Notes under the pieces: model-generated
Databases searched by the model: none
Told to the model about the DNA's origin: nothing
The model's input: the letters and a program-made list of their open reading frames with translations, nothing else
Assembly: GCA_014801525.1 (NCBI GenBank)
Contig: JAAVEB010000002.1
Coordinates: 17,621-81,620, forward strand
Length of the DNA: 64,000 nt
Reading direction: 5' to 3'
DNA from: Bacteroides sp.
Lineage (GTDB): Bacteria; Bacteroidota; Bacteroidia; Bacteroidales; Muribaculaceae
Translations under genes and position numbers: made by a program
Shown: in pieces, positions 37,115-38,878 of the stretch
How positions within the stretch are numbered: the first letter of the stretch is position 1
How the letters are laid out: the number at the start of each line of letters is the position of its first letter

Positions 37115-38176
37115 ATGAATTTTAAGATTGCTGTGTTGCCCGGCGACGGCATCGGTCCTGAAATATCGGTTCAGGGAGTCGACGTTATGGCAGCCGTTTG
37201 TGAGCGTTTCGGCCATACTGTAGAATTCAAATATGGCATTGTAGGAGCTTCGGCGATCGACGCTGTCGGCGATCCGTTTCCCAAAGAGACACTTGAACTT
37301 TGCAAGGAGAGCGACGCTGTGCTTTTCTCGGCTGTCGGCGACCCGAAGTTTGACAACGACCCGACAGCGAAAGTGCGTCCCGAGCAAGGGCTTCTCGCCA
37401 TGCGCAAGCAGCTCGGTCTATTCGCCAACATCCGTCCGGTAGAGACTTTCAAGTGTCTTATCGACAAATCGCCCCTAAAGCGCGAGATTGTCGACGGAGC
37501 TAATTTCATCTGCATCCGCGAACTTACCGGAGGTATGTATTTCGGTAAAAAATTCGAATCAGACGACGTGGCTTACGACACCAACCACTACACCCGCAAG
37601 GAGATTGAACGCATCCTGCGTGTGGGATTTGAATACGCGCGTAAACGCAACAAGCATCTCACTGTTGTCGATAAAGCTAATGTCCTTGCCTCGTCGCGCC
37701 TGTGGCGTAAAGTGGCTCAGGAAATGGAGCCGCAATTCCCCGATGTCAAGACCGACTATATGTTTGTCGACAACGCTGCAATGAAGATGATTCTCGACCC
37801 CCGCTTTTTCGACGTCATGGTCACTGAAAACACATTCGGCGACATCCTCACCGATGAAGGGTCGGTCATTTCAGGCTCAATGGGATTGCTCCCTTCGGCA
37901 TCAACCGGAGAAAGCACCCCTGTTTTCGAACCTATCCACGGTTCATGGCCTCAGGCTAAGGGCTTGAACATCGCCAATCCGCTCGCCCAGATTCTCTCTG
38001 TCGCAATGCTGTTTGAATATTTCGGTCTCGCCGAAGAGGGCAAGCTTATCCGAGAAGCTGTCGATGCATCTCTTGATGCCGGAGTCAGCACTCCCGACAT
38101 CACCGGAAATAAGGGCACTCAATACGGCACCCGCGAAGTGGGCGCCTGGATTGTGGAATATATACGTAAGAAATAA
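37115..38176 (+). CDS. leuB: 3-isopropylmalate dehydrogenase
   Basis: [43 protein letters not shown]. Confidence 0.97.
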
Positions 38177-38239: not shown

Positions 38240-38288
38240 TACCTAATGAATATCCCTTATGTATCCACGATAATTACACATTTATTCC

Positions 38289-38296
38289 TATCTTTG
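38289..38296 (+). promoter_or_regulatory. -7 promoter box upstream of candidate structured leader/sRNA
   Basis: TATCTTTG; no clear -33 element seen. Confidence 0.5.
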
Positions 38297-38455
38297 CAGT
38301 GTCAAAGGGGAATCCAATCCTGCGACAGACATATATCAGGAAGCGTTTCGCTTCATTCCGCTTGATGAATCTGGACAATTCACCACTGAGTAAGGAATGC
38401 AGTCAGATGCTCCCTCTTGGTTGCTGCGTATATGCATTTATACATAAAAGCCAAG

Positions 38456-38535
38456 AGTGTGAGCCGGCATATTCTCATCTTTACTCATGGCTGTCCAGAG
38501 CCTATCAAGCTGATGACGCTATATCGGCTCACACT
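38456..38535 (+). repeat. Long imperfect hairpin within candidate leader RNA/sRNA
   Basis: AGTGTGAGCCG(GC)ATAT (38456-38472) / ATATCGGCTCACACT (38521-38535), with nested TCATC/GATGA and GGCT/AGCC stems, followed by TTCTTTAT. Confidence 0.6.
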
Positions 38536-38604
38536 TTCTTTATATGCCTGCTTGTTTTTCATCATTATATCGTCTTCAGTGCCGAGAAGCGTCCTTACCA
38601 TCCT

Positions 38605-38868
38605 ATGACTACACGAACATCGAGCCGTCTATACGCACTGTCGCGCAGGTATTGCGGCGCCGCCAGCCCGCTCACGACCTATATCCTCGGACGGATCATA
38701 GGCATATCCATGCGTAAAGCCGGGCTCGGCATCACACAAATCAACACAGAGCATTTGCTCGGCAACAGTTATTACGGAGTCGCTAATGCCAATGGAAAGC
38801 AGATTCACCTGTCAATAAACGCCGACACGGCAGGAAACATAACCTGTCGAACGGCGTCATTGAAATAA
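38605..38868 (+). CDS. Small hypothetical protein (87 aa)
   Basis: C-terminal part of the 189-aa open frame; codon use resembles neighbours from about ATG 38605; no recognised family. Confidence 0.4.
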   Translation: MTTRTSSRLYALSRRYCGAASPLTTYILGRIIGISMRKAGLGITQINTEHLLGNSYYGVANANGKQIHLSINADTAGNITCRTASLK

Positions 38869-38878
38869 TACCTCAGTG

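Follow-up and report, generated by a model that had tools for sequence, protein, structure and literature searches.

A covarying structured RNA between leuB and a small gene of Bacteroides sp.: a putative cis-regulatory leader with many copies in Bacteroidales

The region downstream of leuB

The window analysed in this study is a stretch of 64,000 nucleotides of Bacteroides sp. DNA, from a genome that is 66% complete and consists of 23 contigs. Positions 38289–38604 of this window lie between leuB (37115–38176), with its terminator hairpin, and an ORF of 87 amino acids (38605–38868), which is followed at its 3' side by a convergent HAD-type gene. All features described below are on the + strand. 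The region opens with the promoter −7 box TATCTTTG (38289–38296), which fits the consensus TAnnTTTG by sequence. Next comes P0 (38299–38327; start ~38299), a hairpin in the fold of the window copy that links the promoter to the core of a structured leader RNA (38328–38550). P0 is variable, and a hairpin of this type with at least 5 bp stands directly 5' of the core in 98 of 104 loci. The core was identified by its homologues and by its match to a covariance model of 222 positions, called R1 (188.8 bits, E 6.5e-49, with the window sequence being part of the training set). The whole folded RNA measures ~225 bases. The folding energy of 38300–38604 was below that of 100 out of 100 dinucleotide shuffles (z = −3.97).

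A structured RNA had been suspected here in a sequence-only reading of the same region, and all sequences named in that reading are where it had placed them. They comprise the −7 box at 38289–38296, TCATC (38475–38479) with GATGA (38512–38516), GGCT with AGCC, AGTGTGAGCCGGCATAT with ATATCGGCTCACACT, and TTTCTTTAT at 38535–38543.

The 87-aa ORF looks like a real gene. It has no Pfam match, and its dN/dS of ~0.20 compared to genome G179 suggests that it evolves as a protein under purifying selection. Two close relatives carry the gene, in each case together with the RNA, and it was not found elsewhere. In the nearest relative, G172, the RNA part is identical to that of the window (306/306 nt) and the ORF has changed; the leader is more conserved than its gene. 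In a sister genome (L252), leuB is 97% identical and the HAD gene follows almost directly, with both the RNA and the ORF missing. Hence, RNA and gene seem to have been gained or lost as a unit. Neither boundaries nor a duplication were determined for the limits of this cassette, at 38240–38870 of the window in comparison with L252.

In the window as well as in G172, a frame of 189 amino acids passes through the RNA without a stop, and could thus be taken for a single protein-coding gene. However, it contains two in-frame stops in G179, it has no Pfam match, and the region shows RNA-type covariation across 102 loci. Its first 100 amino acids are not conserved as protein, in line with the poor quality that the sequence-only reading had ascribed to the frame upstream of 38605. 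The stops and the covariation refute the 189-aa ORF as a protein, and we attach next to no probability to it.

Fold and covariation of the RNA

The alignment contained 127 copies, of which 104 were non-redundant and 102 were used in the tests. Covariation was assessed by a permutation test, in which pairing partners were shuffled among the loci (2000 permutations). This test ignores relatedness. Changes were also counted between nearest relatives that had been grouped into 63 disjoint pairs, and these independent-pair counts are largely free of the relatedness problem. Covariation among the homologous loci turned out to be extensive, which supports the proposal of a structured RNA.

The predicted topology, shown by comparison of the loci, consists of two hairpins with large loops that pair throughout with each other. 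One loop belongs to P3 (AUUCC at 38355–38359 with GGAAU at 38394–38398). It holds X (38360–38366), the hairpin P4 (UGAAU-CUGGACA-AUUCA, 38366–38382) and Y (38387–38393). The other loop belongs to P7 (UCAUC/GAUGA, 38475–38516), and encloses Y' (38480–38488), the hairpin P8 (38489–38502) and X' (38503–38511). X pairs with X' and Y with Y', while the loops of P4 and P8 kiss through CUGGAC (38371–38376) and GUCCAG (38493–38498).

The crossing helices gave the strongest signals (X:X' z 40.3, Y:Y' z 36.4), followed by P3 (z 14.8), the kissing loops (z 14.7), P7 (14.1), P8 (12.8), P5 (12.6), P6 (12.2) and P4 (11.7), with 0/2000 permutations in each case. Variants of the kissing loops covary as well, in the combinations CUCGAC/GUCGAG, UUCGAC/GUCGAA and CUAGGA/UCCUAG. 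Among the 63 independent pairs, the X helix had 79 double compensatory versus 22 disrupting changes, and P3 had 34 versus 15. P5, a stem with an inner hairpin (38414–38457; permutation z from 86 loci), had zero double compensatory changes in the independent pairs, and is missing from shorter relatives. A count of 52 base pairs, among them those of the kiss and of X:X', in 70 distinct sequences gave 89.3% paired cells, compared to 75% after shuffling and at most 45% when the structure was slid. Helix P1 has its 5' strands (GACATA, GGAAG) at 38328–38343 and their partners at 38534–38538 and 38543–38548; its outer part was paired in 66% and its inner part in 96% of the cells over the 70 sequences.

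The hairpins that had been recognised by eye fared differently. The 80-nt multi-tier hairpin is conserved and corresponds to P6/P7/P8, but the nested fold to which it belonged missed the main architecture, that is, the kissing loop and the crossing helices X:X' and Y:Y'. Neither the existence of a multicopy family nor the platform hairpin described below had been recognised in that reading. The hairpin GAAGCG-TTT-CGCTTC is indeed present at 38340–38354, but this stem is not conserved. It is mostly confined to the window and sequences closely related to it, and its 3' half varies freely elsewhere. Possibly, GCGUUU is more likely to be paired ~57 nt downstream, as P2. This is suggestive only. 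P2 was weak in the permutation test (z 2.4) and shows a few compensatory variants. Pairing of segment 1 with segment 2 upstream of P5 was not significant in this test (z 1.4).

G.U pairs (224) were far more common than A.C mismatches (74), which indicates that the structure forms in RNA of the + strand. This bears on an alternative explanation, according to which the repeat acts as DNA: a recombination or insertion site, or a mobile repeat, recognised by an enzyme that uses its folded single strand or its inverted repeats. The many copies per genome, their patchy presence, the near-palindromic sequence with weak antisense matches to the model, and the sister genome that lacks both RNA and gene between leuB and the HAD gene would all be compatible with such an element. 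Yet, a DNA element does not account for the excess of G.U over A.C on one strand, for the strict orientation and spacing relative to the start codon, or for the presence of a promoter and a U-tract. Moreover, no exact-pattern match was found in viral contigs, where one strict pattern only was searched. We give this explanation very little weight.

Leader position, closing helix and platform hairpin

The RNA and the downstream gene share a strand in 97 of 102 loci, with a gap of usually 30–60 nt from the core; upstream genes are mixed, with 59 on the same and 34 on the opposite strand. TAnnTTTG occurs at −80 to −12 of the RNA in 87 of 101 loci, versus 15 of 101 in a control stretch further upstream. 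The same-strand gene, the short gap and the usual 5' promoter together imply that the RNA is a 5' leader.

The genes behind these leaders are diverse. Their products (87 proteins) match 79 Pfam families, the commonest being a zinc ribbon with 6 matches. No shared function emerged from Pfam, and PADLOC matches were scattered. A common signal for functionally unrelated genes is not excluded. Retron, ribozyme, omegaRNA and bridge-RNA readings were dropped without a search being run, given the diverse downstream genes and the lack of a recurrent effector gene. An association with transposases was also rejected, as only seven loci (L006, L011, L021, L037, L046, L054, L067) have an IS1595-like transposase gene close to the RNA, a name based on inspection of its sequence and not on a family search. 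By Pfam and PADLOC, some downstream genes (L114, L157, L136, L097) resemble parts of DNA-defence systems (DUF4007/SspB-like, FtsK/SspH-like, PLD-helicase).

The kissing-loop domain is closed by P6, whose 5' arm GUGUGAGCC (38457–38465; segment 2) pairs with its 3' arm UCGGCUCACAC (38524–38534; segment 3). P6 is paired in 96% of the cells, and is directly followed by a U-tract (38535–38543) that is conserved across the loci, with ~80% T at most of its first ten positions (102 loci). A GC-rich stem with a direct U-tract is the layout of an intrinsic-terminator attenuator, although termination itself is inferred. Because the U-tract after P6 is conserved, a terminated short RNA ending at ~38541 is possible as an attenuated product.

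Past the U-tract, the window and most other loci have a platform hairpin, CUUC-AGUGCCGA-GAAG (38574–38589). Its loop GCCGA (38581–38585; segment 4) is complementary to UCGGC at 38524–38528, in segment 3. Segment 3 and the platform loop covary (z 14.0, 0/2000 permutations), whereas two controls, taken from the following 45 nt and from 100 nt further downstream, gave no significant signal with segment 3. The reversed-sequence control yielded z 4.1, so that part of the 3:4 signal is compositional. The first five bases of P6 alone, which form the overlapping part, still covary with the platform loop (z 8.6). Since most of the same bases of segment 3 covary with the P6 5' arm too, the two pairings are mutually exclusive. 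In the window, the platform hairpin is weak (−4.1 kcal/mol, z −0.41) and the 3:4 pairing has 5 bp only.

Segment 4 ends at a median of 24 nt 5' of the start codon (IQR 20–28). It is transcribed after the U-tract, and hence can have no antiterminator role for that tract. It is more likely that the 3:4 pairing acts on translation or on the later fate of the RNA.

The sequence-only reading had left the choice between a regulatory 5' leader and a stand-alone sRNA. In the latter case, a trans-acting RNA would be made from its own promoter and end at the P6 U-tract, and the neighbouring gene would be incidental. The promoter in 87 of 101 loci and the U-tract after the closing helix fit this explanation, and multicopy regulatory sRNAs do exist in Bacteroides: FopS and GibS are such RNAs, and FopS acts in trans with a single-stranded 5' R1 seed (PMC11697453). 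The RNA described here resembles FopS and GibS as a multicopy family in Bacteroides. It differs from FopS in that it is the leader of a gene and folds compactly, as judged from position and fold and not from a direct sequence comparison. An incidental neighbour is also difficult to reconcile with same-strand genes in 97 of 102 loci at a near-fixed distance, and with a P6 strand that covaries with a hairpin past the U-tract, ~24 nt from the start codon. Even in the absence of transcript data, the leader reading is strongly favoured by the genomic evidence, both by the same-strand genes and by this element that links the RNA to the start-codon region; the stand-alone sRNA is disfavoured, and we consider it improbable.

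A subset of the leaders has an additional element. In ~24 loci, including L163, L169, L072, L074, L086, L103 and ~18 others, the DNA 26–30 nt upstream of the −7 box (segment 0) is complementary to the P6 5' arm and its 3' flank. In many of these loci the segment is also complementary to the strand before P5 (the mid or P2 strand), with up to 12+12 nt in L169. Just 5' of the segment, 14 of the 24 loci have a second TAnnTTTG, compared to 7 of the 60 other loci (Fisher p = 2.5e-5). The segment was also present in seven additional copies from P. faecis, B. xylanisolvens, B. stercorirosoris and O. lunatus, and inspection by eye revealed a second box in four of them. The copy in the window has neither segment 0 nor a second promoter.

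The first idea for this upstream segment was RNA-guided DNA targeting. The mid and segment 2 strands would then pair with DNA just upstream of the −33 box and control the RNA's own promoter, in the manner of TldR or a long-form tracrRNA. The two-part complementarity, which reaches 12+12 nt, its location 26–30 bp upstream of the −7 box and its locus-specific sequence agree with this idea. However, such loci tend to carry another TAnnTTTG upstream of the segment, so that pairing within a longer transcript is simpler than pairing with DNA, and the idea was lowered once this second promoter had been found. No effector protein is linked to the RNA, though none was sought. In addition, the window copy lacks the site, and one exact bipartite pattern for its guide-like strands had no match in its own genome, which is 66% complete. 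We now assign hardly any weight to RNA-guided control. The simplest reading of segment 0 is an antistructure at the 5' end of a longer transcript. Energies of the long and short isoforms could not be compared informatively by nested folding without pseudoknots.

Distribution, possible mode of action and related systems

At the DNA level, matches were obtained in 40 of the 297 genomes searched from the same family, and R1 was built from 19 of the matched sequences. Matches to R1 were found in 313 of 397 genomes of the family, 112 of 393 of the order and 13 of 396 of the phylum sample. These surveys scored five candidates per genome, and the copy numbers in them are lower bounds. Fuller scoring of eight named genomes gave 7–35 copies each, for example 9 in Bacteroides xylanisolvens XB1A, 14 in Parabacteroides faecis and 35 in the 2.6 Mb genome of Odoribacter lunatus (G787). 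Many of the copies in O. lunatus have an identical P6 5' arm, in a lineage-specific expansion. The window's own genome has two further, weaker copies (L034, L035), which share a variant kissing loop, AUCGCCA with UGGCGAU, with L096:6861-7100. In L014 (G197), the 3' half of the copy seems to be swapped for unrelated sequence, and this RNA gene has probably decayed or recombined.

Our preferred explanation, which we hold with reasonable though not full confidence, is that 38328–38550 together with P0 forms a structured 5' mRNA leader of the gene at 38605, and belongs to an order-wide, cis-regulatory family that is present in many copies and resembles attenuators and riboswitches. Comparison of homologous loci shows the strand, the promoter position, the pairings, the kiss, P6 with its U-tract and the platform covariation. 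Control of termination or translation, sensing and the sign of the effect are inferred, and there are no transcript data.

In the closed state of such a leader, P6 and the core would be formed, and expression would be off in a terminator-like or other manner. In the open state, the platform hairpin would capture segment 3 and thereby free segment 2. The kissing-loop domain within P6 would be the likely sensor that sets the balance between the two states. It would probably do so by binding a small molecule or a protein shared by many genes, for which we have no binding data. In about a quarter of the loci, not including the window, a longer transcript from the upstream promoter may carry segment 0, which would take the P6 5' arm and favour the open state.

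Several hallmarks of a riboswitch are present: the 5' position on the same strand as the gene, the covarying aptamer-like structure and, as far as pairing is concerned, the mutually exclusive platform. As a counterpoint, the functionally unrelated downstream genes would be unusual for a metabolite riboswitch. A more far-reaching interpretation is that these RNAs form a large and new class of riboswitch-like leaders in Bacteroidota, which senses one global signal on behalf of many unrelated accessory genes per genome, and that in a subset of loci the choice of promoter is built into the RNA. Transcripts starting at the upstream promoter would contain the bipartite segment and thereby unfold the switch, and those starting at the downstream promoter would lack it. 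This interpretation is tentative, and we regard it as possible rather than probable. A bolder form of it, with the mid and segment 2 strands paired to promoter DNA, is less likely but not excluded.

To our knowledge, few cis-regulatory RNAs have been described in Bacteroidales, a dominant order among gut bacteria. With up to 35 copies per genome before unrelated and mostly uncharacterised genes, the leader RNA points to an unknown common signal and offers a handle on when these genes are expressed. The kissing-loop fold and the competing pairings of the same strands make the mechanism accessible to point-mutation tests. The R1 model and the coordinates suffice to annotate the RNA.

The leader RNA appears to be new as a family, and its mode of action resembles that of known cis-regulatory RNAs. 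Attenuators of the trp type rely on alternating pairing of consecutive segments. The exclusive pairings 2:3 and 3:4, and 0:2 in some loci, are similar. However, no leader peptide was identified, and a conserved domain is located inside the 2:3 stem. The AdoCbl (cobalamin) riboswitch, of ~200 nt, has junctions that are stabilised by a loop-loop kiss. The leader RNA is of similar size and also has a loop-loop kiss, but it differs in its kissing arrangement and its lack of an Rfam match, and no cobalamin genes were seen downstream. The HMP-PP riboswitch (thiS motif) has its aptamer embedded in a terminator (PMC6478431). It shares with the leader RNA a domain inside a terminator-like closing stem, a position upstream of the gene on the same strand, and competing pairings. 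In contrast, the core of the leader RNA is much larger, with kissing loops and two long-range helices; it has no common gene function and no Rfam match, its terminator embedding is inferred, and ligand data are lacking.

No description of the leader RNA was found in the open-licence literature, and an account published in a subscription journal may have escaped this search. The motifs of Weinberg 2010 (PMC2864571) are largely in Rfam, and none of them match the leader RNA. Neither Bacteroides nor Prevotella nor Flavobacterium is mentioned in the surveys of 26 and 50 genomes (PMC8632094, PMC11109978). Thousands of microbiome motifs were reported by Fremin and Bhatt 2021 (PMC8040213); an uncharacterised, partial description of the leader RNA among them is possible, as the comparison did not extend to their sequences.

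Rfam 15 had no family that reached its gathering threshold over the RNA of the window, with nothing relevant at E up to 10, and no Rfam match was found over the RNA in 40 related loci. DUF805 RNA (RF03081) is likewise a cis-regulatory RNA, but it is a separate Rfam family of 68 positions, and the leader RNA does not match it. In two distant relatives, DUF805 RNA lies directly 3' of the leader RNA in the same orientation (L087:1714-1779, L092:1398-1466), which places two cis-regulatory RNAs in tandem.
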